Assembly (NCBI RefSeq): GCF_003056345.1
Contig: NZ_PYWB01000002.1
Coordinates: forward strand, 1 to 64,000
Direction of reading: 5' to 3'
Source of the DNA: Devosia submarina
Lineage (GTDB): Bacteria > Pseudomonadota > Alphaproteobacteria > Rhizobiales > Devosiaceae
DNA length: 64,000 nt
Position 1 is the first letter of the stretch, and the number at the start of each line of letters is the position of its first letter. Made by a program: the position numbers and the translations under genes. The notes beneath the pieces were generated by a model that had not been told where the DNA came from, did no database searches, and worked only from the letters and a program-made list of their open reading frames with translations. Positions 28,250-42,281 of the stretch are shown here, in pieces.

Positions 28250-29992
28250 TCAAAAGAAAATGTCGTCAAGATTCGCTTCTTCTGCCTTTTCAATGTCAGG
28301 CGCCGTGGCGGACTGATCAACGCCAAACATCTCCCCATGAATCCGGCGCTCTGCGTCCATTGTGTAACGCTTGCAGTGGGTCGAAAGCGCCTCGACGACA
28401 ATGGCTGGCAGTTCGCCCGCTGCACGCTCCTGGCATTCCGAGGCCAATTGCATTTGCAGGTCGCGCATGGTTTCGGCAATGGCCGTTAGGCCGCGAAACG
28501 TATCGGCGGCAGTGCCTAGGAGCTTTATCACGCTCGGGCCGTCGCGGTTGAGGGCACCAAGCGCTTCGGCAAGCGATCTGTCGACTTGTTCAAGCATGAC
28601 CAGTGCGGCGCTCGCTTCCTGCTCCAACTGGCCGATGCGCCCAGCCGTGTTGCCATTGGCAGCAGCTCCAAAGGATTGTGCAAGGCCGGCAGCTTCGTGC
28701 AGGCTCGCCATGGCCGCTTCAGCCGCGGCGACCGTTTCCCCGGTGAGCTCGCGCAGCTGACGGGCGATCACGTTGAGGGCGGCGCCGCGCGGCCCCAGCT
28801 GGGCACATTTGACCGCAGCATTGAGGCTGACGAGACGCATATTCGCCTCGATCTCCTGCACCGCTTCAACATGGCTGAGCAGCACGCCGACCGTGTCGAG
28901 AACGGCGCTTGCGACGGCTTCGAGCTTGGTGCGCTCGGCTTCGCAATCGCGCAGGACTGTGGCGGCGTGGCGCACCGCCTGGTTGAGCGTGGCGAGGGAG
29001 GATCCCTCGTTGCTGCCCTCTCCGTAGACGGCGCGGCTTTGAGCCATTATGGCCCCGGCGTCGGCAGCCAGATCGCGCAAGGCATCTCCCGCTTCGGCGA
29101 CGTCGTCTTCGAACGCGTCGGCCGCCGCCGTGAGTTGGGCGACCTGTAGGCTGCCCAAGACCGAGCGCGCGGCGATGGCCTCGTCTGCGGTCATAAGTCC
29201 TTGCTCGATAAGGCTGCTCAAGGCATCGATACCGCTTTCGATATGCTCGATACGTTGACGCGTTGCGTCTCCGACCTGGAGCGCCATAACAGCGCTGGCG
29301 ATCCGGCCGACAATTTGGCGGGAGACGCGGCCGGTTTCGGCGGCGCTGGCGACGGAAACGGCACGCTGGCGCGCAAGCTCGTCGAGCGCCTTTTCCATGT
29401 CGAGGGCCAGTGCGTCGAGCGTTTCGGAATGTGCGTTCTCGAACTGGCCCCGTTGACGCGCCGCCTGCCCGACTTCCTCGGTGAGGCGGCGATAGGCCGT
29501 AGTGAAGGCCTGGATCGTGGCGGTGGCGCTGTCGGAGAGCTTAGCGATATCGGTGGTGAAAACGTCAAAGTCGTCACTGTCACCCACGACGCTCGCAGCG
29601 ACAACACGGGCGTTGATCGCAACAATGCTCATCATCTTGACCGCGCGCCGCAACTCCGCAATCGGGTGATCGGCGGATGTGACGACAGCTACGAGGCGCG
29701 ACAGATCGGCCTGCTCGGTCGCGAACATGGCGGAGATGGTCTTGGCTTGCGCGCCGATCTCGGCAAGACGGGTGGAGGCTTCCACTAGGCGAGGGCTTTG
29801 CAGTTCTGCGGGTAGCGCCTCGAACACCTTGGTCACGCGGTTGAGCATGGTGGCGCCTTCGGACAGGCGCGCGCCCACGGCAAGGAAAGTGGTTTCGATC
29901 TGTTCGCGCGGCGCAGCTAGCGCCTGCCCGATTGCCTTGACGCGGGCTTCATTGCTGTTCGCAGCAGGAAGCGAGACGGCGAGAACGCTCAT
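28250..29992 (-). CDS. Soluble MCP-like chemotaxis protein with CheZ-like signatures
   Basis: 580 residues, almost all helical, with no membrane segment. Two stretches look like decayed chemoreceptor hairpin tips: [19 protein letters not shown] (119-137) and [17 protein letters not shown] (384-400), each followed by a degenerate EVRKLA-like helix. Between them [18 protein letters not shown] (238-255) has the D-x-x-x-Q spacing (Asp242, Gln246) of the catalytic helix of CheZ phosphatase. The extreme C-terminus ANLDDIFF resembles the acidic amphipathic CheY-binding tail of CheZ. It is the last gene of the che operon, overlapping cheB by four bases. I infer a CheY-P phosphatase or signalling scaffold. 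Automated pipelines would probably call it an MCP, but it cannot sense outside the cell. Confidence 0.75.
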
Positions 29993-31119
29993 GAGCTGGA
30001 TCCCAAACGTTGCGCTTGGCGCGCGTAGGTCTCGATTTCGTGCGCCACGCGGCTCAGCGGGACAGTGCGCACCGCAGCGCCGCGCTGGATGGCTTCCTTG
30101 GGCATGCCGAACACAACGGAGCTTTCCTCGTCCTGTGCGACGGTATGGCTGCCCGCCTCCCGCATTTCGAGCAGGCTACGTGCGCCATCATCACCCATGC
30201 CGGTCAGGATGATGCCCATGGCGTTCTTGCCCGCCACCTGGGCCGCAGAGCGAAAGAGCACATCGACCGATGGCCGGTGGCGGGAGACATGGGGGCCATC
30301 AACAATGCTGACGCTGTAGCGATTGCCGGTACGCACCAGCACCAGATGCTGATTGCCCGGTGCGATCAGCGCCCGGCCGGGCAGGAGAACGTCGCCATCT
30401 TCGGCTTCCTTGACCTCGATGGCGCAAAGCGCGTTCAGCCGGCGTGCAAAGGCTGCGGTGAATTTTTCGGGCATGTGCTGCACGATGACGAGGGGCGGCG
30501 TGCTGGTCGGAAGCTTTTCGAGCACATCGCGCAAGGCCTCAGTGCCGCCCGTGGACGCCCCGATGCAGATGATCGGATCGGTTTGCGGTAACCTCGCGCG
30601 CAAAGCTGCGGCGCGAGCCTCCGAAAGGGGCGGAATGATTGCATCGGCCGTGAGCTTAGCTTCGGCATTGACGGGTGGCGGCGGTGCCTTTTTCACCCCA
30701 CGGAACTTGGCGTGTGCGGCCGCCTTGGCCGCATCGCAGATGCGCATGCGCGATTCCTGGAGGAATTGCGTGGTGTCCACGCGCGGCTTGGCGACGACAT
30801 CCACCGCGCCAGCTTCAAGCGCTTGCATCAGGGTATCGGAGCCAGCCTCGGCCAGGCTCGAGCAAATCACCACCGGAATGGGGCGCTGGCTCATGATCTT
30901 GCGCAGGAAGGTCAAACCGTCCATCCGCGGCAGTTCGATGTCGAGAAACATGACATCGGGCACTTCCTGGCGGATGCGTTCCACCGCGACATAGGGGTCG
31001 GCGGCTGTCGCCATGACTTCGAGCTGGGGATCGCTGCTGATGATTTCGCTTAGAGTCATGCGAACCGAAGCGCTGTCGTCAACAATCAAGACGCGGATCT
31101 TGCCGCCGGACGTGGACAT
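29989..31119 (-). CDS. cheB: Chemotaxis response regulator / protein-glutamate methylesterase CheB
   Basis: 376 residues. Receiver domain 8-120 has phosphoacceptor Asp60 in [13 protein letters not shown] Pro/Ala-rich linker at 140-180 joins the methylesterase domain, with the triad Ser189 (CIGASTGG), His215 (QHMPEKF) and Asp310/311 (LTGMGDDGA). Phosphorylated by CheA, it removes methyl groups from chemoreceptors for adaptation. It follows cheR by 7 bp and overlaps the last gene of the operon. Confidence 0.96.
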
Positions 31120-31126
31120 GGGGGCC

Positions 31127-32002
31127 TCAAGCCTTCTGGAATACGGCCGGAGCGACCTGCCGCATGGTGACGGCAGTGCCGATCATGGATTCGGAGTGAC
31201 CAAGAACGAGGTAACCACCGGGGCGGAGATGATCGACAAGACGCAGGATCACCTTCTCCTGATCTGCCTTGTCGAAATAGATCAGCACATTGCGCAAAAA
31301 GATGACGTCCACGTCACGATCAAACGGATAGCTCTTGTCCATGAGGTTGAGCCGGGCAAAGTGCACTAGGCGCCGCAATTCGGGAACGATGCGAACTTCG
31401 GGCCGTGCGCCGGGTTTGCGCGCGTGCATCAGATAGCGCTGGGCCTTGGCAGGGGGAACAGGGGCTATCAGGTCGGCAGGATAGACGGCGCGCTCCCCTT
31501 CCGCCAGCACGGCCGTAGAGATATCCGTGCCCAAAATGGCAAAATGGAAATCGTGGCGTTGGGCTGCAAGGTCTGCCAGAACCATGGCAATCGTGTAGGC
31601 TTCGGCTCCCGTCGAGCTGGCCGCACTCCACACCTTGAGCAACGGCTTGGTTTCGGCGCGGCGCATCTCGAGCAGGGCTGGCACCATATTGCGCTCGAGG
31701 ATTTCGAAATGCTCGGGCTCGCGAAAAAAATCCGTCTTGTTGGTGGTGACAGCGTTGATCAAATGCGGCCATTCGGCGCGCAAGCCATCGTTCTTGAACA
31801 AATGGGCGCTGTAGTGCTCAAGGCTCGCGAGCCCCAGGGCCCGCACCCGCTTGCGCAGTCGACCCTCGATCATCAGGCGCTTGGCTGCCGGCAGCTTGAT
31901 GCCGATCTCGGTGCCAATGAGACTGGCGATCCGCTCGAAATCACGCAAGGGAAGATGATCGTCTTCAGCGTTTTCCGGTAGCTTGGGCAGCAATTGAGAC
32001 AT
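31127..32002 (-). CDS. cheR: Chemoreceptor glutamate methyltransferase CheR
   Basis: 291 residues from the ATG at 32002 ([17 protein letters not shown]); an in-frame start 39 bp earlier is possible. The N-terminal helical domain holds [14 protein letters not shown]. The SAM-binding domain has [17 protein letters not shown], where the usual Cys before STG is Ser. [19 protein letters not shown] and [13 protein letters not shown] follow. It methylates Glu residues of receptors using S-adenosylmethionine and works against CheB. It lies 67 bp downstream of cheW. Confidence 0.94.
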
Positions 32003-32069
32003 GGGCGGCAAAGACCAGCACTCCAGCCGAAAATTTGGCACGCGATGGCTAGATCGCGTACCGTGTGGT

Positions 32070-32531
32070 TCAGGCAGCTCGGGTTAACCCGTCGACACCG
32101 CCGAGGAGGCGCTCGAGATCGAGCACCGTGACAAAGCGGCCATTGCGCCGGCCAAGTCCGGCGATGCAGCGGCCGGACCAGGAGCCGCCGACCGCCGGTG
32201 GCGGATCAAGTTCGTCCTGGTCCAGTACGGTGACCTCAAACACCCGATCCGCGCGCAGTCCGAGCCGATGATCGCCACCGGGGCCATCCAGGGCCAGCAC
32301 GATGATGCGCGTGTTTTCCGTGTCCGCCGCCTCGGGCAGGCCTAGGGTGAGCCGCAGGTCCACCACGGGCACGCCTTGGCCGCGCACATCGATCATGCCG
32401 AGCAGTGTGTCAGGGGCCTGAGGGAGCCGTGCGATGGGTCGCACGTCCAGGATTTCCTGCACCTTTTCGACCGGCGCCGCGAAGAGTTCATCCGCGACGC
32501 CAAGAGTGACGTATTGGGCGCGTTCCGCCAT
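32070..32531 (-). CDS. cheW: CheW coupling protein (second copy)
   Basis: 153 residues, a single CheW-like SH3-type beta-barrel. It holds YVTLGVADELFAAPVEKVQE, LPQAPDTLLGMIDVRGQG and VPVVDLRLTLGLP. It is shorter and more divergent than the other CheW (34634-35134). CheW links receptors to the CheA kinase. The usual conserved Arg is found in IDVRGQ. It is placed between the receptor gene and cheR, 9 bp after the former. Confidence 0.9.
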   Translation of the reverse strand: MAERAQYVTLGVADELFAAPVEKVQEILDVRPIARLPQAPDTLLGMIDVRGQGVPVVDLRLTLGLPEAADTENTRIIVLALDGPGGDHRLGLRADRVFEVTVLDQDELDPPPAVGGSWSGRCIAGLGRRNGRFVTVLDLERLLGGVDGLTRAA

Positions 32532-32540
32532 GGCCGGTCC

Positions 32541-34637
32541 TCAAGCCGCGCCGCGGCGGCTGAATTCGCCGTCGAGTTCGTCATGCCCGTCATCAAGGTC
32601 GATGGCGAAGCCGCCGCTGTTTTTCTTGGCCGGCTTGCGGATCGCGATGTGCGGTGCGCTGGCCATGATGGCTTCACGCAGATCCTTGTTGTTGGCGGCA
32701 GGCTTGCTCTTGCTCTTGGCTGGAGCAAGGGGCGCCTGTTCAGCGCGGCCGTCGATGCGGAAGTAGCCGATGGCGGACTGGAGCTGTTCCGCCTGGCTCG
32801 CGAGCTCTTCGGAGGTCGCCGACATTTCTTCGGCCGCCGAAGTGTTCTGCTGGGTCACCTTGTCGAGCTGCTGGATGGCGGTGTTGATTTGCGCAGCGCC
32901 GGCATTTTGCTCGCGGCTGCCGGCGGAGATTTCCTCCACCAGCTCGGCCGTGCGCTGAATATCGGGCACGAGCTTGCCCAGCATTTCGCCGGCAGACTGA
33001 GCGGCCTTGACCGTGGTGCCCGAGAGCGTCGAGATCTCGGCAGCAGCAGCCTGTGAGCGCTCGGCGAGCTTGCGCACTTCGGATGCAACCACCGCAAAGC
33101 CGCGGCCGTGTTCGCCGGCACGAGCGGCTTCCACCGCGGCGTTAAGGGCGAGCAGATCGGTCTGGCGAGCGATTTCCTGCACGACCATGATCTTTTCGGC
33201 AATGGTCTGCATGGCGCTGACGGCGTTGTTCACTGCTTCACCCGAGGCGATCGCATCGGCAGCGGACTGGCGGGCGATCTTTTCGGTCTGGGAGGCGTTG
33301 TCGGCCGACTGCTTGATGGTAGCGGCCATTTCTTCCATCGAGGCAGAGGCCTCTTCGGTCGATGACGCCTGCTCGGTCGCACCCTGCGAGAGCTGCTCGG
33401 CGGTCGCCGACATTTCCTGGGAACCAGCGGCAACGTTCCGGGTTGCCGCGGTGACTTCGGAAACCACGTCGCGCAGCTTGCCCGTCATGGCGTTGAGTGC
33501 CTTGACCAGATCGCCCACTTCGTCGTCGCTCTTGTTGTCCGCCGATGCACTGAGATTGCCATCAGCCACTTCATTGGCCAGACGCACGGCGCTGGACAGG
33601 GCGCGAGAGATGGAAACCACGATCCAGGTGGCCGCGGCGATGGCGATGATCGTCGAACCGATCAGAAGCGCGATCAGCATCATGCTTGACTGGCTGAACA
33701 AGGCGTCGGCGGCGACGTCTGCTTCTTCCAGAAGGAGCTTGTTGCGGGCGATCATCTCATCGAGCATGTCGTCGGCAGAAATGCGCAGGGCTGCAGCCTG
33801 ATCGGCCATAACAGTGGCATTGTAGTCGGACTTGGTCAGTGCCATGTCGACGGCCTTGTTCATGGCAAGGACGAGGTTGCCATAGGCATCCCGAGCGGCG
33901 TTGAACAGCCCAGTATCTTGCACCGAGATAGCACGTTGCAGGGGCGGCATGGCTTCGTCGATGGCGGCTAGGCCAGTTACGTAGTCAGCATGCCATTTTT
34001 CCTGCAGTGCAGGATCGCTCGAAGCGAGCAGGATATTGCGCTGCTGGCGGAAGATATCGGTCATCGTAAGGAAGCTGTCGCTTGCCGTCTGATAGGCAAG
34101 GAAGCTGCCGGGTTCGCCGGCATTCACGCGGGCGGCCAGAGCCTTCTTGAGTGCACCCATGGTTTCCTCAACCGCACCCAGGGCATCGCTGCCCTCGGAG
34201 CGGGAGATTGCAAGCGCCTCGACATCACTGTTCTTGAGGGCGAGTTCCTCGATCTGGGGGACCAAAGCCTTGAACTCGGCCAGCTTGTCGTTGAACACGC
34301 CGAACTCTTCGCGCACCTGTGGATCCTTGATGTTGCCATCAAGGAACTGGACCGCACGGGCGATCGTCTCGAACTCGTGGTCTATCGCCGTGCCAAGGGC
34401 TTCCATCTCGGCGACGTCGCTCGCAACGATCAAGGCGTTGACTTCGGTGCCTACAGCTTCGAGCGCAGTCTGCAGGTCGGACATCTCGATTGTGTTGGCA
34501 GCACGGATGTTGACGATGTCGCCAAGCGATTCGTTGAGCTTTCCAAGGCTCTGCATGGCCAAGAACATGCTGACGCCCGACAAGGCGATCACGGTGACGA
34601 ATGTCGCCGCCAGCTTGGTTTTGATAGTCAGTCTCAC
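32541..34637 (-). CDS. Methyl-accepting chemotaxis protein, transmembrane
   Basis: 698 residues. Two membrane helices (about 8-28 and 318-343) enclose a long all-helical periplasmic domain of about 285 residues, similar to helical bimodular sensing domains. A HAMP domain (343-395) and the MCP signalling domain follow, with the intact hairpin tip [17 protein letters not shown] and [18 protein letters not shown]. The C-terminal tail after residue 640 is low-complexity and charged, ending SRRGAA, with no CheR-binding pentapeptide. The ligand is unknown. As the only receptor inside the operon it is probably the main partner of this CheA/CheW set. It overlaps the upstream cheW by four bases. Confidence 0.93.
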
Positions 34638-35134
34638 GATGCAGACCTTTCTTCTGATGCTGCTATGGACGCGGTTCTGGCGCCCTGTGTTTCGAAAATG
34701 CGCCCCAGATCGGGGATGATGATGAAGCCGCCGTTGCGCTTGCCGATGCCCTTGACGAATTCGGGCCGCCAGCGCATGCCGACCTTTGGTGCCTCCTCTA
34801 TGGAGGCCGCTTCGATGTCGGTGACGTCGTGGACCTTGTCAGCCAGGATGCCGGCGACGGTGGGCTCGCCGTCGATTTCGACCTCCATGACAACGATGCG
34901 CGTATCCTGATCAGGTTCAGGACGATCCATGCCGAACATGACCCGAAGGTCTGCCAATGGCACCACGCGCCCACGCACATTGATCAGCCCGCCCACGAAC
35001 TCAGGCGCGTTGGGCACTTCGGTGATCGGCACGAGGTCGAGGATCTCGCGGACATCGCAGGCTTCCACCGCGAAAAGCTCGTCCTGCAGCCTGAGCGTCA
35101 AGGCTTTCATGGCGCCTGCCTGAACCTGGCTCAT
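34634..35134 (-). CDS. cheW: CheW coupling protein (first copy)
   Basis: 166 residues. Conserved CheW segments are present: [51 protein letters not shown] and [17 protein letters not shown]. It bridges CheA and chemoreceptors in the signalling array. The start overlaps the cheA stop and the end overlaps the receptor start, each by four bases, so all three are translationally coupled. Confidence 0.95.
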
Positions 35135-37167
35135 GCGGCCCTCCCCTGATCGACATAGCTTTGCCCGAAGGCGACCAGATGGGCGGTATCAAGGATCAGA
35201 GCGACCGTGCCATCGCCCAGAATCGTGGCGCCCGAGAAAGACTTGATCGACGAGTGCAACTTGCTCAGCTGCTTGATCACGGTCTGGTTGTTGCCGATGA
35301 TCTGATCGACCACGAGGCCAACACGCCCTTCTCCCGAGGAGACGATGACCACCTTCTGGTGCGGCTCCAGCGGAGCTTTCGTGCCGAACACCTCGCGCAT
35401 GCGCAGAAAGGGAACAAGGCTCCCGCGGATGTCGAGGAAATTGCGCCCGCGCGCATTGGCTTCGATGCCTTCGGGCAGTTCCACGCATTCTTCCACGGCT
35501 GCAAGCGGAATGGTGTAGCGGCCATTGCCAACCCGGACGAGCATGCCATCGATGATGGCCAGGGTCAGCGGCAGGCGCAGGGTCATGGTGGACCCTTGCC
35601 CGGGGCTGGTCGTGACGTCGATGCTGCCGCGCAGGCCCTCAATGGTCCGCTTGACAACGTCCATGCCGACGCCGCGCCCGGAGAGGGAGGTCACTTCCTT
35701 GGCTGTCGAAAAGCCCGGAGCGAAGATCATCTGCCAGAGTTCGGCGTCAGGAATCTTGGCGTCCGGCGCCAGAAGCCCGGCTTCCTCGGCCTTGGCGCGG
35801 ATGCGTTCGGCGTTGAGGCCCGCGCCATCGTCAGTGACTGAAATGGCCACCTCGGCGCCGGCATAAACAGCCGAGAGCCGAACAGTTCCCTTGGCGGGCT
35901 TGCCGGCGGCGAGGCGTCGCTCGGCGCTTTCGAGGCCATGATCTACCGAGTTGCGGATGAGATGAACCAGCGGGTCAGCCAGACGCTCGATCATGGTCTT
36001 GTCGAGTTCGGTGTCCTCGCCCGAGGTGATGAACTCGATGTCCTTGCCCAGATCGCGCGAGAGATCGTGCACGAGGCGGCGGAAGCGGCTGAACAGGGTG
36101 CCGATCGGCACCATGCGGATGCCCATGGTCGTGTCGCGCAGGCCTGAGCTCAGACGCTCCAGCTCCTCGGCGATGGTCTTGAGGTTGGCATCGCTGCTCA
36201 TGTTGGCGATCTGCGTCAGGCGAGCCTGGGCGATCACCAGTTCGCCCACGCGATCCATCAGTTCGTCGAGCCGCTCTGCATCCACGCGCATGGACGAAGA
36301 CGCGGCAACAGCGGGGTCCTTTTCTGCAGCCTTTTCGGCCACAGCCTTGGGCTCGGGCTTGTGCATGGGCACCAACGGTGCCGGGGCTGGCACCTCTGTT
36401 GTTGCGGCAGGCGCTATCTCGACCTCGGTTTCGGCGGCAGGCGCGGTGGCATCGGCCAGGGGCTCGACGGAAAGCTCCATCCCCTCCTTGAGAAACAGGA
36501 AGACGTCGTCGATGGCCGAGCGTGGATCCTCGTGCTCGATGTCTACCTGCCAGCCGATATAGGGGACTTCGGGATCGATGATGTCGAGCGGCGGCAAGGT
36601 ATCGGTCAGGGCCACCACTGTGCAGGGCCCAAGGGCGCGGATTTCTTCCAGAAGAAGAACCGGATTGGTGCCGTAGACCAGTGAGTCCGCTGGCAAGCGG
36701 AACCGGATGCGCCAGAGGGCTTCACTGGCCGTGCTGGCCGTGTCAGGCTCGCGCAGGCGCTCCGAAGGCTTGGTCAAAACCGGGTTCGGCACGTCCGTGT
36801 TGCCCAGCACGTTGCGGAGGGCGACCAGGATGGCTTCTCCGCCAGAGGGCGACGCATCTGGGTCCTGGATCAGTTCGTGAATATGGTCCTTGGCGTCTAG
36901 GGCAACGGCAATCAGCGCTGGCGTGGCAGGAGATTGACCCTTGCGGACCTGGTCGAACGCTGTTTCGAACTCATGAACGAAGGCAGCAACGGCGGTGAAG
37001 CCGAACATCGCGCCCGAGCCCTTGATGGTGTGGAGCGCGCGGAAGGTGGAGTTGATCAGATCGTCATTGGCCGGGTTCTGCTCAAGATCAAGAAGGCCTG
37101 ACTCCAGCTGATCCAGCAGTTCCCTTGCTTCCTGCCGGAAGGTTTCGGTGGGGTCAGGAAAACTCAT
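35131..37167 (-). CDS. cheA: Chemotaxis histidine kinase CheA
   Basis: 678 residues from the ATG at 37167; a longer frame overlaps cheY and is not family-like. The HPt domain carries phospho-His46 in RALHTIKGSGAMFGF. A Pro/Ala-rich linker runs from about 245 to 300. The dimerisation domain has VDAERLDELMDRVGELVIAQ. The ATPase has the N-box in IRNSVDHGLE, then VTDDGAGLN and GRGVGMDVVK. A CheW-like regulatory domain ends the protein. It phosphorylates CheY and CheB in response to receptor state. ATGA overlap with cheY upstream. Confidence 0.97.
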   Translation of the reverse strand: MSFPDPTETFRQEARELLDQLESGLLDLEQNPANDDLINSTFRALHTIKGSGAMFGFTAVAAFVHEFETAFDQVRKGQSPATPALIAVALDAKDHIHELIQDPDASPSGGEAILVALRNVLGNTDVPNPVLTKPSERLREPDTASTASEALWRIRFRLPADSLVYGTNPVLLLEEIRALGPCTVVALTDTLPPLDIIDPEVPYIGWQVDIEHEDPRSAIDDVFLFLKEGMELSVEPLADATAPAAETEVEIAPAATTEVPAPAPLVPMHKPEPKAVAEKAAEKDPAVAASSSMRVDAERLDELMDRVGELVIAQARLTQIANMSSDANLKTIAEELERLSSGLRDTTMGIRMVPIGTLFSRFRRLVHDLSRDLGKDIEFITSGEDTELDKTMIERLADPLVHLIRNSVDHGLESAERRLAAGKPAKGTVRLSAVYAGAEVAISVTDDGAGLNAERIRAKAEEAGLLAPDAKIPDAELWQMIFAPGFSTAKEVTSLSGRGVGMDVVKRTIEGLRGSIDVTTSPGQGSTMTLRLPLTLAIIDGMLVRVGNGRYTIPLAAVEECVELPEGIEANARGRNFLDIRGSLVPFLRMREVFGTKAPLEPHQKVVIVSSGEGRVGLVVDQIIGNNQTVIKQLSKLHSSIKSFSGATILGDGTVALILDTAHLVAFGQSYVDQGRAA

Positions 37168-37532
37168 GCGCCCGTGACCTTCTTGACCACTGCCAGCAAT
37201 TGATCCTGCTTGAACGGCTTGACGATCCAACCCGTCGCTCCGGCTTCCTTGGCCTGGCGCTTGAGCTCCTCATCAGATTCAGTGGTCAGCAGGATGATCG
37301 GCACACCCTTGCTAGAGGGATGCTGGCGGTATTTGCGAATAAACTCGATGCCATTCATCACCGGCATGTTGAGGTCGGTGATGACCGCATGCACAGTGTT
37401 GCCGGTCGCCTTGTCGTAGCCATCTGACCCGTTGATGGCCTCGATCACCTCAAGCCCCGCACTGGTCAGTGTCATTGCTACCATCTGACGGATGGAAGCG
37501 GAGTCATCGATGGTCAGAATGGTCTTGGTCAT
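37164..37532 (-). CDS. cheY: Chemotaxis response regulator CheY
   Basis: 122 residues, a lone receiver. The acidic pair is in ILTIDDSASIRQMV, the phosphoacceptor Asp53 in AVITDLNMPVMNG, the Thr in ILLTTESDEE and the Lys in WIVKPFKQDQ. Phosphorylated by CheA, it would bind the flagellar motor. It is the only free CheY in this operon, so no obvious phosphate-sink partner is encoded here. Confidence 0.96.
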   Translation of the reverse strand: MTKTILTIDDSASIRQMVAMTLTSAGLEVIEAINGSDGYDKATGNTVHAVITDLNMPVMNGIEFIRKYRQHPSSKGVPIILLTTESDEELKRQAKEAGATGWIVKPFKQDQLLAVVKKVTGA

Positions 37533-37879
37533 TGCGCCCTGCCCTTGGCTGTTGTGGATGAGGTCCAGAATCCGCCGTCTCCCGTGAGCGGCGCTCCGGA
37601 TGAGTCAAGAAAGCCGAGCTCGATCAGCAATGTGCGCACGGCACCTTGCGGCAGCGCTGCCAGAGACAGCGACTTGCCCAAATTGCCCGCATGCTTTTTG
37701 GCGGCAAGCAGCAATTGGATGGTGGTAAGATCGGCGGTTTTGACCGCGCTCGTGGAGACGGTGATCACGCTGTTGGCGGCTATCGCCTCCTGCAGCAATG
37801 TCGCGATATCTTGCGCTGCGCGCAGGCCAGCTTCACTCGGGAGCTCGACCATGTGGGAAGTGGTGCCGGCCATGGTCAT
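37529..37879 (-). CDS. STAS-domain (anti-anti-sigma-like) protein heading the che operon
   Basis: 116 residues from the ATG at 37879, which has GAAGG seven bases upstream; two earlier ATGs lack one. The fold pattern AANSVITVSTSAVKTADLTT, then IQLLLAAKKHAGNLGKSLSL, matches an MlaB-like STAS domain. The usual phosphorylatable Ser position after Asp is Thr here. Such small STAS proteins open several alphaproteobacterial che operons; their role in chemotaxis is not well defined. It overlaps cheY by four bases. Confidence 0.8.
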   Translation of the reverse strand: MTMAGTTSHMVELPSEAGLRAAQDIATLLQEAIAANSVITVSTSAVKTADLTTIQLLLAAKKHAGNLGKSLSLAALPQGAVRTLLIELGFLDSSGAPLTGDGGFWTSSTTAKGRAQ

Positions 37880-38405
37880 GGCCGAGCCTTCAGGCATAGA
37901 ACGCAATACATAAAACTACGCTACCGACGGGAGCGCTGATCTGACCGCAGACACTGTTCTTGCAAGCAGTGCCGCACGGCGCGATCAAGCGCCGAACTAA
38001 TTAACTACAAACACCGTATTCCCATCCGATGCATAGAAGACCTTATCGGAAGTTGATTAAGGCACCCTTACTTGCCGTCGACTCTCTACTGAAGCTCGTC
38101 TATTTTTTGATCCAAGTATTTCTTGTATGTTTTATAAGTAATGCTGGGGCTCTGCACGCCTCAGCTGAGTCATGATTCAGCCACCCGGAATCTCGCCTCC
38201 ACAAAACTCAAGTTTTGCAGCTGGCCAGGTGTTGAGCTTACTAGAAGTATCATCGGCGTGATGTTGCACGGCGCTCCCAAGATGTAAGCACGTGTGCTGA
38301 AAGGCTTGGGAGCTCTAAACCAATGCCAACTCGGCCCCTGCGAAGAAAGCGCGTGGGAAACACGCACCTCAGGGGCAGCGGTCAATCGATTTCAAGAAAA
38401 GAAAA
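37880..38405. other. Intergenic region between the che operon and the HD-GYP gene
   Basis: About 525 bp with no convincing gene. The half next to the che operon should hold its promoter. Around 38080-38150 it is AT-rich. At 38334-38376 there is a nested stem: GCCCCTG with CAGGGGC outside, and GCGTG with CACGC around a GGAAA loop inside. That could be a small RNA or the terminator region of the HD-GYP gene. Confidence 0.4.
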
Positions 38406-39452
38406 TCAGAAGCCGACGGCTTGGGCCGTTGTGTCCCGCATGATCTCTTCGATCTCGGGCCATTTGGTGCAGAAGGCTGCTACGCACGCAGGATCGAAAT
38501 GACTGCCGCTGGAGCCGACGATTTCGGCATAAGCCTTGTCGATGGGCCAGACAGCCTTGTAGGGGCGCTCAGAGCAAAGTGCGTCGAATACATCGGCAAT
38601 GGCGACGATCCTTGCCTCGATCGGGATGTCGTTGCCGGAAAGCTTGTCGGGATAGCCAGCGCCATCCCAGCGCTCATGATGGCTCTGCGCGATGAGTTCG
38701 GCCGTCCTGATCAACTCGGACGAGCCATTCTCCAGGATGCGGGCGCCAATGGTGACATGTTCGCGCATGATCCCGATCTCGGCGGGTGTGAGCTTGCCCG
38801 GCTTGCACAGGATTGCGTCGGCAATGCCGATCTTTCCGATGTCGTGGAGAGGCGCCGCCAAGTAAATCATCCGGCAATGATGCGGAGCAAGCCCGATGGC
38901 ACTGGCGATCAACTGGCTGATCTGTGCCACACGAGACACATGCTCGCCCGTGTCCCCGTCGCGGTATTCGATGGCACGTGCCAGCCGCCAAATGATTTCT
39001 TCTTCCCGTGCCAGCAGATGAGCGGTGGCTTGCTCGACTTTCTCGGCAAGCCAATTGGCACGGTTGGCGAGTTCGACCTGTGCCGCGCGCAAGGCCAGAA
39101 GATTGGCCACGCGCGCTTGCAGTTCGGTGGGATCAAAAGGCTTGTTCACGAAATCGGTCGCGCCGGCGCGTATGGCCTCCAGGCGCGTGTTGCGGTCCAT
39201 GTCCGATGTGATCATGACGATGGGCACAAGGCGGTATGCCTCGCGCTGGCGCAAGGCGCTGGTGAACTGCACGCCATCCATTTCCGGCATGATATGATCT
39301 ACAAGAACCAGATCATATTGCGTGGTTTGGCTTAGATCGAGCGCCTCGAACGGACGGGTACTGCTGTCGATTTGCGCATTGGTGGCCGCCTGAACAAGTC
39401 TTCCGATCAAGGCCAAGCTTGATCGACTATCGTCAACTATTAATACGCGCAT
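38406..39452 (-). CDS. Response regulator with HD-GYP c-di-GMP phosphodiesterase domain
   Basis: 348 residues. Receiver 1-120 has phosphoacceptor Asp52 in LVLVDHIMPEMDG and Lys in FVNKPFDP. A short coiled linker follows. The HD-GYP domain begins around 150, with EHVSRVAQ, the catalytic HD pair in APLHDIGKIG (203-204), and HHERWDGAGYP (258-268). The last is a full GYP signature, so it is likely to be an active c-di-GMP hydrolase. Its place after a chemotaxis operon suggests a motility/biofilm switch. The ribosome-binding site lies in a GC hairpin just upstream. Confidence 0.94.
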   Translation of the reverse strand: MRVLIVDDSRSSLALIGRLVQAATNAQIDSSTRPFEALDLSQTTQYDLVLVDHIMPEMDGVQFTSALRQREAYRLVPIVMITSDMDRNTRLEAIRAGATDFVNKPFDPTELQARVANLLALRAAQVELANRANWLAEKVEQATAHLLAREEEIIWRLARAIEYRDGDTGEHVSRVAQISQLIASAIGLAPHHCRMIYLAAPLHDIGKIGIADAILCKPGKLTPAEIGIMREHVTIGARILENGSSELIRTAELIAQSHHERWDGAGYPDKLSGNDIPIEARIVAIADVFDALCSERPYKAVWPIDKAYAEIVGSSGSHFDPACVAAFCTKWPEIEEIMRDTTAQAVGF

Positions 39453-40660: not shown

Positions 40661-41980
40661 TTAGAGACCAAACGGGAAGGTTTCCGGCGTTCCATGAGGC
40701 GGATCGGTTGGCAGTGGGGTGACGGCTGTTGTTTGGTCAAACCACACATAGGCGTCGAACTGGTCCAGTAGGCGTGCTTTGAAATAGTGACTCTGCAGCT
40801 CAGTGTCCGGTCGGTAAACAACACCAATGGCGCGCTCCAGGCGCGGCTCAGACAGGGCCTGTCGTAGCTTTGGACTGGCGTGCAAATGCGTCAGAGATGG
40901 TGATTGTCCCGCCTGGTGAAACAGGCTTTCGAATGATCCTTGGCGGGAGGGCAATATTGTCTTGAACTGCACCGGCTCATCCCAGTCATCCGCAGCCGCA
41001 ACCGTGCCATGGTCAGTGCCGAAACCGATGGTGACGCAGGCATCGCCATAGGCCTGCTTACACAACTGGCCAATGTTGTGCTGTCCTTCCCACCCCATTT
41101 CAGTGGCTGAAGCGTCTCCGATATGGGAATTGTGCGCCCAGACCACGATCTTGGCTTGCGGCCCCCTGGCGTCGAGAACGCTTTGCAGGGTTTCGAACAT
41201 GTGGGTGTCGCGCATGTTCCATGACTGTGTCGAGCCGCGAAACATCAGCCGGTAATATTGCTCGGCCGCTTGAACCACCTTGGCATTGCGGGTTGCATCG
41301 AACAGATCCTCGTCGTCAGCCTTGTCCAAGCGGCGCTGCAGTAATTCCTCCAACTGCGTGGCCACTGCGTCTTCGCAGGGATCGCGTTCGCCCATGAGAA
41401 CCGCACGACCATACCATTGGGGCTCAACCTGAAAAGGAGAAAGGCAGCCGTAACGACGTCGCGCCAGAGCGGCAGCCTCCGGATCAGCCTTGGCGAGATA
41501 GTTTAGAACCTCGGCAATGGAGTTGCGGAGTGAATAAACATCAAGGCCCCGAAACTCCACTTGCCTTTCGACGGGCAGCGCATCGTTGCGGTACCTTAAC
41601 CATTCCACAAACCGTGCAAACTGACGATTGCGCCACATCCAGGTCGGAAAGCGCGCAAAGACATGTTCGTCGTATTGTCCACCTGGACGATGCCGAACGT
41701 AGCGGTCGACGCGGCTCGCGTCAGGCCAGTCCGCCTCTACCGCAACAATGTTGAAGCCATGGTCTTCGATAAGCCGCCGCGTTATGGCGGCCCGCGCGCG
41801 ATAGAACTCCGAGGTACCGTGAGACGCCTCGCCCAGCAAAACTACACGCGCGTCACCAAAGCGTGCGAATGGCGCGCTGAACTCGTCCGCATCATCGGGG
41901 CTTGCCAAGGACAAGGCGACTTCGCGCAGCATGGCGACAAGTTCTGCTTCGCCCTTTTGCGCCGGCGAATGCACCTCCAC
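40661..41980 (-). CDS. Erythromycin esterase family protein
   Basis: 439 residues from a GTG at 41980, four bases after the DUF2934 stop and behind GGAG. The open frame extends to 42076 but overlaps DUF2934, and an ATG at 41932 is another choice. Family motifs are clear: VVLLGEASHGTSEFY with the catalytic His, NIVAVEADWPDASRVDRYV with the Glu, and VVWAHNSHIGDASATEMG. The EreA/EreB-like fold (PF05139) opens macrolide lactones in a few members. Most chromosomal homologues, often near stress genes, have no known substrate, so a resistance role should not be assumed. Probably cotranscribed with DUF2934. Confidence 0.85.
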   Translation of the reverse strand: MEVHSPAQKGEAELVAMLREVALSLASPDDADEFSAPFARFGDARVVLLGEASHGTSEFYRARAAITRRLIEDHGFNIVAVEADWPDASRVDRYVRHRPGGQYDEHVFARFPTWMWRNRQFARFVEWLRYRNDALPVERQVEFRGLDVYSLRNSIAEVLNYLAKADPEAAALARRRYGCLSPFQVEPQWYGRAVLMGERDPCEDAVATQLEELLQRRLDKADDEDLFDATRNAKVVQAAEQYYRLMFRGSTQSWNMRDTHMFETLQSVLDARGPQAKIVVWAHNSHIGDASATEMGWEGQHNIGQLCKQAYGDACVTIGFGTDHGTVAAADDWDEPVQFKTILPSRQGSFESLFHQAGQSPSLTHLHASPKLRQALSEPRLERAIGVVYRPDTELQSHYFKARLLDQFDAYVWFDQTTAVTPLPTDPPHGTPETFPFGL

Positions 41981-41984
41981 CGCC

Positions 41985-42281
41985 TTACTCCGCTTGCTTG
42001 CCTCGAGCACTTCCTGTGGCACGATTGCCTGTGGCGGCGCCTCCAGTGCCGATGCTTCCAATGGTTGGCGCTCCACCTACGGGGGCCATGCCGCCCGATT
42101 GCAAATTGGTGCTCAAGCCGGACGCACCCATACCTGGACTGTCTTGCACAGTATCACTCTCCGCCATCAGCTCTGCGACGGCATCCATGTAGTTCTGGAA
42201 CTCGCGACCTTCTGGCCGCCCTTCATTTTCCCAGATGCGGTATGCACGGCGCTTGATTTCGTCTTCGTCCAGCATGGCCAT
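41985..42281 (-). CDS. DUF2934 family protein
   Basis: 98 residues from the ATG at 42281 behind AGGAGA. The N-terminus (LDEDEIKRRAYRIWENEGRP, then a short helix) is the DUF2934 domain. The rest is Gly/Ala/Thr-rich and probably disordered, ending SARGKQAE. DUF2934 proteins are common in alphaproteobacteria and soil bacteria near stress or carbohydrate genes; the function is unknown. It precedes the esterase gene by four bases. Confidence 0.85.
   Translation of the reverse strand: MAMLDEDEIKRRAYRIWENEGRPEGREFQNYMDAVAELMAESDTVQDSPGMGASGLSTNLQSGGMAPVGGAPTIGSIGTGGAATGNRATGSARGKQAE

Follow-up and report, generated by a model that had tools for sequence, protein, structure and literature searches.

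Several described proteins invite comparison with the product of the last gene of a che operon of Devosia submarina, a 580-amino acid protein (P0001) encoded at 28250..29992, stop codon included, on the minus strand of the window, that is, the whole 64,000-nucleotide stretch analysed here (contig NZ_PYWB01000002.1, positions 1 to 64,000). CheZ (Pfam family PF04344) has been described as broadly distributed, alpha-Proteobacteria included (PMC7750401). McpA-like receptors such as PA0180 and VCA1088, which are encoded beside F7 clusters, possess a strikingly conserved C-terminus whose role was considered important yet unclear (PMC7184735, Ortega et al.); in a P. species the would-be pentapeptide there carries V as its second residue (PMC7184735). 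According to the same study, genomes with stage 1 or 2 F7 systems carry cheZ in F6 clusters only. Experimental reports on VCA1088 were lacking, as stated by PMC7534058. CheT of Sinorhizobium meliloti contains a DXXXQ motif and is reported to enhance the dephosphorylation of one CheY (Agbekudzi 2024, as described in PMC12654446). In a literature search that reached few subscription papers, no publication was found that gives McpA-like receptors or P0001 a phosphatase site. From the comparison of sequences and gene orders described below, we consider that P0001 is probably a CheZ-type phosphatase of phosphorylated CheY (CheY-P), carried on a pseudoreceptor scaffold.

Conservation of the proposed catalytic helix, the YTM patch and the tail

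The CheZ-like helix of P0001 spans residues 236-256 (29225..29287, on the minus strand like all features of P0001 and its operon given below). It contains the pair D242-Q246 (29255..29269), which we propose to be catalytic. Their counterparts in Escherichia coli CheZ would be D143 and Q147. An earlier note on this DNA, made from the sequence alone, had placed Asp242 and Gln246 on this helix and read the end of the protein as LDDIFF, and both readings were borne out. The DxxxQ spacing is not beyond chance in P0001, where it occurs twice (at 242 and 511): shuffled sequences contained a mean of 1.54 occurrences, and 82% of them had at least one. The motif by itself was therefore dropped as evidence, and the site stands beyond chance because it is conserved in orthologues.

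Orthologues were collected with profile A5 at E <= 1e-20, which gave 28 orthologues, one per genome, among 297 genomes of the order. Four of the 28 genomes (that of the window, G322, G519 and G531) had contributed rows to A5, and seven, that of the window included, belong to its genus. The earlier note had made its proposal depend on conservation of Asp242 and Gln246 among orthologues; both were kept in 28/28, as were Q239, G241, R245, R247, E249 and H250. A second conserved stretch, the YTMxxERxxH patch (residues 543-552, 28337..28366), had T544, E548, R549 and H552 in all 28 orthologues and Y543 and M545 in 27. In total, 24 columns were identical in at least 27 of the 28 orthologues, and 14 of them fell within residues 239-250 and 543-552, 22 residues in all (hypergeometric 1e-16). 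This value is descriptive, as the stretches were picked after inspection of the alignment and its rows have common ancestry. The acidic-aromatic C-terminal tail (residues 571-580, 28253..28282), which the same note had also expected to be conserved, was less strictly conserved than the helix: D577 was kept in 25/28 and F580 in 22/28. Among close homologues, counted on 120 listed of 487 found, D242 was present in 119/120 and Q246 in 120/120; in the tail, D576 and F579 were each present in 101/120 and F580 in 104/120. A further orthologue (L248, on G649:C37; BLAST 3.8e-48), outside the 28-genome set, lies in a 1,051-amino acid open frame after cheB.

A module shared with McpA-like receptors and standalone proteins, and its likely link to CheZ

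Within the class, profile A1, made from the Devosia family, had matches in 5 of 289 genomes and led to a 393-amino acid protein (L004) in which an intact receptor hairpin is followed by QFQDRTKQRLEHV, then by YTMKEERVVH, and by a tail ending in IELF. The last 94 residues of L004, used as a query, gave 13 further matches in 11 of 299 genomes. Profile A3 was made from L004 and nine of these 13, excluding three two-copy proteins (L042, L045, L046) and L044, and holds no Devosia or CheZ row. Its invariant residues are Q28, F29, Q30, D31, Q35, Y79, H88 and the terminal F. In the genome of the window A3 had a single match, at 29183-29347 (E 3.6e-7), which is the D242/Q246 helix; the A3 score of P0001 was 27.9 bits, and comparison of profiles A1 and A3 with hhalign gave 5.9e-7. 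Across the phylum, A3 had matches at E <= 1e-4 in 137 of 398 genomes, and these matches include some CheZ. Measured against the McpA-type module that A3 defines, P0001 has the QFQD-like DxTxQxxxH helix, the Y[TV]MxxxxxxH patch and the terminal F (22/28), whereas helix and patch are not contiguous: they are separated by about 300 residues, with the second hairpin between them, against about 45 in the module.

The receptors that carry the module look like McpA-like receptors (PA0180/CttP, VCA1088) by gene order and tail. When McpA-like proteins were aligned, 8/11 ended in [DE][ILV]TFF, and one locus (L090) has the order module receptor, cheY, cheA, cheW, receptor, which is the place of McpA. Like P0001, McpA-like receptors of ancestral F7 clusters have a receptor hairpin followed by the module, which at their C-terminus reads QFQDxTxQ...H...Y[TV]M......H...TFF; their genes lie next to cheY and cheA. 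They differ by an intact tip, a published predicted transmembrane region and a contiguous module, whereas P0001 has two decayed tips and its YTM patch is separated from the helix by the second hairpin. Extra McpA increased swimming (PMC9855816); more phosphatase could be one cause of this increase, among others.

The module was also found free of any receptor. Standalone proteins of about 155 amino acids (family A7, three of them named Mariprofundales) resemble P0001 in their D[AT]TRQQLEHV helix, their YVMESER..H patch and a tail ending in DLF or ELF, and differ from it in having no recognised receptor hairpin. With hhalign, A7 gave 3.6e-4 on the A1 helix and 6.3e-6 on the YTM patch of A5. CheT shares with P0001 its alphaproteobacterial origin and the DXXXQ motif. 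Among six open reading frames (ORFs) that we called CheT-like by position only, five read LQGIDLAVQK or MQGIDLAVQK; they differ from P0001 by their length (115-133 amino acids) and their place beside cheD. Their profile comparisons with this family did not reach significance (hhalign E 0.02, 0.022, 0.11 and 0.033 against A3, A5, A6 and A7, motif on motif only with A7).

Several variants of the module were noticed besides. The two-copy proteins L042, L045 and L046 (about 580 amino acids; at E <= 0.1 Pfam gave nothing for L042) have a live Q[FV]DDIT[SA]QR-EH helix and an altered second copy (MDFQDPFKKGIDHV in L042), continue with YTMxRER..H and end in F-E-[LM]-F. They are an independent case of the P0001 design with two copies. 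ORFs of about 1,100 amino acids in small genomes of family f168 (L245 on G356:C15 and L246 on G301:C2) carry a C-terminal variant, LQNIDRV[SM]QRL...RYVMEEER, and in the two examined adjoin cheY-cheA (L245) or cheA (L246) directly; ORFs of this type are numerous among the phylum matches of A3. The LQNID form is intermediate between the CheT-like LQGID and McpA LQFQD forms. A variant without the YTM patch (L247 on G310:C1, and L071) has 330 amino acids, reads LQFEDISRQ, ends in GDVDLF and lies directly after cheB. Finally, receptors L143, L147 and L165 have an LQF[QE]D helix with a different C-terminus (KPV or NPV, then Q, SM, then ELF), and cheY lies directly downstream of L147.

P0001 resembles CheZ in having both a D-x-[TS]-x-Q catalytic-type helix and a C-terminal acidic-aromatic tail, in the linkage of its module relatives to cheY, and in that N at D+2 and E at T+2 are retained by the CheY encoded nearby. 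It differs in lacking a PF04344 match, in having receptor-like hairpins in place of the CheZ core, arranged as two in tandem, and in adding the EH and YTMxxERxxH elements. Profile A3 recognised CheZ. At least five of its matches fell on PF04344 CheZ loci in four genomes (G384:C173, G315:C1, two on G326:C6, G043:C78; E 8e-7 to 7e-6); the remaining CheZ loci, canonical gammaproteobacterial ones included, were not among the A3 matches listed. In a controlled comparison, A3 put 28/30 CheZ proteins above the best decoy, a reversed CheZ at 4.2 bits (median CheZ score 10.6, best 27.1), and missed L030 (4.0) and L031 (1.2). Ordinary receptors, 24 of 30 of which were recovered by their tip pattern, scored 2.7 bits at most. 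In the reverse direction the signal was weak: Pfam PF04344 found one of seven module proteins (L038, E 4.2e-5, under cut-off), and the NCBIfam CheZ models found three of seven (L037 0.0086, L038 0.0043, L042 0.0036). Judging from these profile scores, common descent of the module and CheZ is likely, although the two may instead have converged on one kind of site.

A CheY-like receiver ORF lay within 1.5 kb of 18/30 module loci, as compared with 26/30 CheZ loci and 2/30 ordinary receptor loci (Fisher 1.9e-5). The 30 module loci were the best-scoring ones fetched; some come from related genera and some are source loci of A3, so that they are not fully independent. Receivers were detected with a receiver profile, four of whose eight seeds came from module loci; the profile is general, since 26/30 CheZ loci score with it. 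N at D+2 and E at T+2 were kept in 15/18 receivers at module loci and 9/10 at orthologue loci; beside CheZ the counts were 25/26 and 26/26. In the C45 cluster of the genome of the window, one receiver has R and one has E at T+2. Nine of 80 named loci (80 kept of 589) contained the module according to a motif search, and in seven of the nine cheY comes directly next, followed by cheA, Pseudomonas sediminis (L137) and Sphaerotilus mobilis (L142) being among the loci with this order. In two genomes, of which one is named Mariprofundales via a protein record, the free module protein of about 155 amino acids has cheA on one side and cheY on the other, and neither genome had a PF04344 match at E <= 0.001. 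As for P0001 itself, che genes were present within 1.5 kb of 23/28 orthologues, either cheB or STAS-cheY-cheA or parts of it.

Receptor-like hairpins and competing explanations

The earlier note had described a helical protein with two decayed receptor hairpins as the final gene of the operon, and this description was confirmed. The structure model of P0001 was all-helical (pLDDT 83), and that of the standalone A7 protein mostly helical (pLDDT 69). The second hairpin tip (residues 376-420, 28733..28867) was recognised through the MCPsignal family (PF00015), which gave 15.2 bits on residues 375-426, under its cut-off of 34.6, and through alignment A1; the corresponding region of a distant orthologue (L003) scored over this cut-off (35.4 bits, E 1.2e-8). 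The first tip (residues 115-150, 29543..29650) was recognised by profile comparison with the second, using the 14-row alignment A5 (E 1.4e-4, probability 53%), while the shallower alignment A1 gave no match between the hairpins (0.16). Residues 111-252 also matched the NCBIfam BB0569 family (NF052273) weakly (E 0.0055). P0001 resembles members of this family in its similar length, its place next to cheB and its atypical receptor character, and differs in that its 15.3 bits are far under the family cut-off of 1000 bits. The residues for contact with receptor, CheA and CheW were not kept in the tip: aligned by eye, K395, Q398 and P401 stand in place of E, R and E of the operon's own receptor, at positions which we take, from Tsr, to matter for these contacts. 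The helix after hairpin 2 (residues 497-515, 28448..28504) would be a dead second copy of the catalytic helix; this is suggested by the tandem repeat and by the letters LDFQRDLGEV and LDFEDSLGEV, which L079 and L082 show near this position. Matches of P0001 to FADD among Protein Data Bank sequences (best E 0.018) were judged to be chance.

If P0001 is a CheZ-type enzyme, it would act as the CheY-P phosphatase of an F8-like chemosensory operon. Its active site would be the helix LQVGD242ATRQ246RIEH, with D242 and Q246 reaching the phosphorylation site of CheY and positioning the attacking water in the manner of D143 and Q147 of CheZ. This site would be located where a receptor-like hairpin ends. 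With two tandem hairpins, the second bearing a dead site, a single chain could mimic the dimer normally formed by CheZ, whose long helical hairpins pair into a four-helix bundle, and by receptors. Since the tips have lost contacts thought to be necessary for the control of CheA, the hairpins would act as a scaffold or an array anchor. The YTMxxERxxH patch may provide a second element, for structure or for contact with a partner. Tethering of CheY, or of another Che protein, is the probable task of the acidic-aromatic tail.

The rival that survives best, unlikely as it appears to us, is a non-catalytic adaptor or array component, whose hairpins would pack into or against the array while helix and tail would only bind CheY, CheB or CheR and so concentrate them. 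However, the DxxxQ helix and the YTM patch are conserved more than the tips, and the second tip lacks charged residues that the operon's own receptor retains. It is more improbable still that P0001 is a sink or competitor that holds CheY-P tightly away from its target, through helix and tail, without hydrolysing it. Acidic-aromatic tails do resemble the CheY-binding peptides of FliM and CheZ, and the linkage of the relatives to cheY would suit this explanation, but the absolute conservation of D and Q (28/28) goes beyond the needs of binding, and the likeness is to the catalytic helix of CheZ and not merely to its binding peptide. Least probable of all is a degenerate cytoplasmic chemoreceptor or sensor in which DxxxQ is incidental and the EH and YTMxxERxxH elements form a ligand or metal site: H250, Y543 and H552 are indeed conserved in 28, 27 and 28 of the 28 orthologues, correspond to H39, Y79 and H88 of A3, which nearly all modules keep, and are absent from the CheZ consensus, yet D and Q are conserved at least as much as the histidines, the McpA-like proteins L066 and L070 keep D and Q without the second histidine, and these residues are also present in the 155-amino acid versions, which lack a Pfam receptor match and are encoded between cheA and cheY in the two genomes examined. 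For H250 and H552, metal binding and histidine phosphotransfer were both considered as readings.

Several observations weigh against P0001 being a CheZ-type phosphatase. P0001 had no Pfam PF04344 match at E <= 1. In hhalign comparisons with canonical CheZ, A5 was not significant (0.22) and its alignment missed the motif; A3 aligned motif on motif but gave only 0.0026 (probability 11.5%), and A7, also aligned on the motif, only 0.094. Foldseek and VIA searches with the models of P0001 and A7 returned helical matches of a generic kind; CheZ was absent from the 50 listed for each, a result that excludes nothing. The same style of tail ends six PF03975 CheD proteins (L131-L136) and the CheD-like protein of the C45 locus (L097:11099-11749), with examples such as DDIELF, TSIEFF and GDVDLF, and 4/6 CheT-like ORFs end in DFDFF. 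Because CheD proteins end alike, this tail does not point to CheY specifically; from these endings, several Che proteins may share one docking tail, and LDDIFF as a CheY-docking peptide is plausible. Five of the 28 orthologue loci (L230-L234, of one genus) had no che gene within 1.5 kb; in another member of this genus (L235), STAS, cheY and cheA lie near the orthologue. PF04344 was over cut-off in 15/26 genomes checked, and CheZ is also present in most gammaproteobacterial genomes that carry the module; orthologue and CheZ coexist in several genomes (G315, G384, G043, G051). Among the genomes checked, that of the window, G519, G322, G531, G571, G608, G389, G426, G328 and G453 gave no PF04344 match at E <= 0.001; for the genome of the window this speaks in favour of a phosphatase role of P0001. 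Lastly, McpA was located in the F6-type array and not in the F7 system beside its gene (PMC7184735; for Shewanella, PMC9855816). In that case the F6 CheY, or both, could be targets of the predicted phosphatase.

The genome of the window adds a further point of this kind. It has three cheA loci, in the window, on C45 and on C4. The C45 locus comprises cheA, a CheD-like protein recognised by eye, a receptor, cheR, cheB and cheY, and the C4 locus comprises a receptor, cheB, cheR, cheA and a CheC-like protein (PF04509 over cut-off). The CheC-like protein gives the cell at least one other candidate phosphatase, in a different cluster. The earlier note had argued that a CheY-P phosphatase was functionally missing; this holds in so far as none is known in the operon and the genome had no PF04344 match even at E <= 1, and it fails in view of the CheC-like protein and of a locus elsewhere with its own CheY. 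Its other premise, that CheZ is mostly absent from alphaproteobacteria, was wrong or too strong: 11 genomes of the same order or class matched PF04344 over cut-off. What stands is its core idea, the merger of phosphatase signatures with receptor tips, which finds good support in the conservation of the site, the recognition of both the helix and CheZ by A3, and the linkage to cheY. P0001 had no CheC/CheX/FliY-type match at E <= 1.

Operon context and wider significance

The operon reads STAS, CheY, CheA, CheW, receptor, CheW, CheR, CheB and P0001. The STAS-domain protein (37529..37906; STAS_2, 44.4 bits) is in a CheS-like position. The sole single-domain CheY (37164..37532) has N at D+2 and E at T+2, like the CheY genes beside CheZ. 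It is followed by cheA (35131..37230, taken as the longest ORF, so that the true start may differ), the first cheW (34634..35134), a chemoreceptor (32541..34637; 4HB_MCP_1, HAMP and MCPsignal over cut-off), the second cheW (32070..32531), cheR (31127..32041) and cheB (29989..31119; CheB_methylest and Response_reg of Pfam), both cheW and cheR being assigned by domain match. The ORFs of cheB and P0001 overlap by four bases. The che2 cluster of Rhizobium leguminosarum (cheY3, A2, W2, receptors, cheW3, R2, B2) has been assigned to class F8 (PMC7617929), and from the gene order shared with it we infer that the operon of the window is F8-like. The named close homologues of P0001 are Devosia proteins.

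Near the operon, a response regulator at 38406-39452 had a match to a c-di-GMP phosphodiesterase family, below cut-off. A receiver ORF also adjoins the P0001 orthologue in L085 (L085:1551-2744), and others of about 410-440 amino acids adjoin the orthologues in L228, L235 and L237. Further away, at 40661-42076 on the minus strand, an EreB-type esterase match was far under cut-off (56.7 versus 750 bits).

How CheY is switched off in non-enteric chemosensory systems is poorly known. Taken together, the sequence comparisons make us lean, somewhat less firmly than for P0001 itself, towards an unrecognised class of CheY-P phosphatases in which a CheZ-type site is borne at the C-terminus of McpA-like receptors of ancestral F7 systems, on two-hairpin F8 pseudoreceptors of Devosia and rhizobia with one live and one dead site, or by a free protein in Mariprofundales. 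Such a class would supply the phosphatase missing from these clusters and explain the McpA C-terminus. The module addresses two published points, namely the role of that conserved C-terminus and the existence of F7 clusters without cheZ, and it may be more important than P0001 itself. If this is true, some receptors would combine a tip that controls the kinase with a phosphatase site, CheZ could have a relative or ancestor carried on a receptor, and McpA-type proteins, so far counted as chemoreceptors, would at least partly be enzymes.
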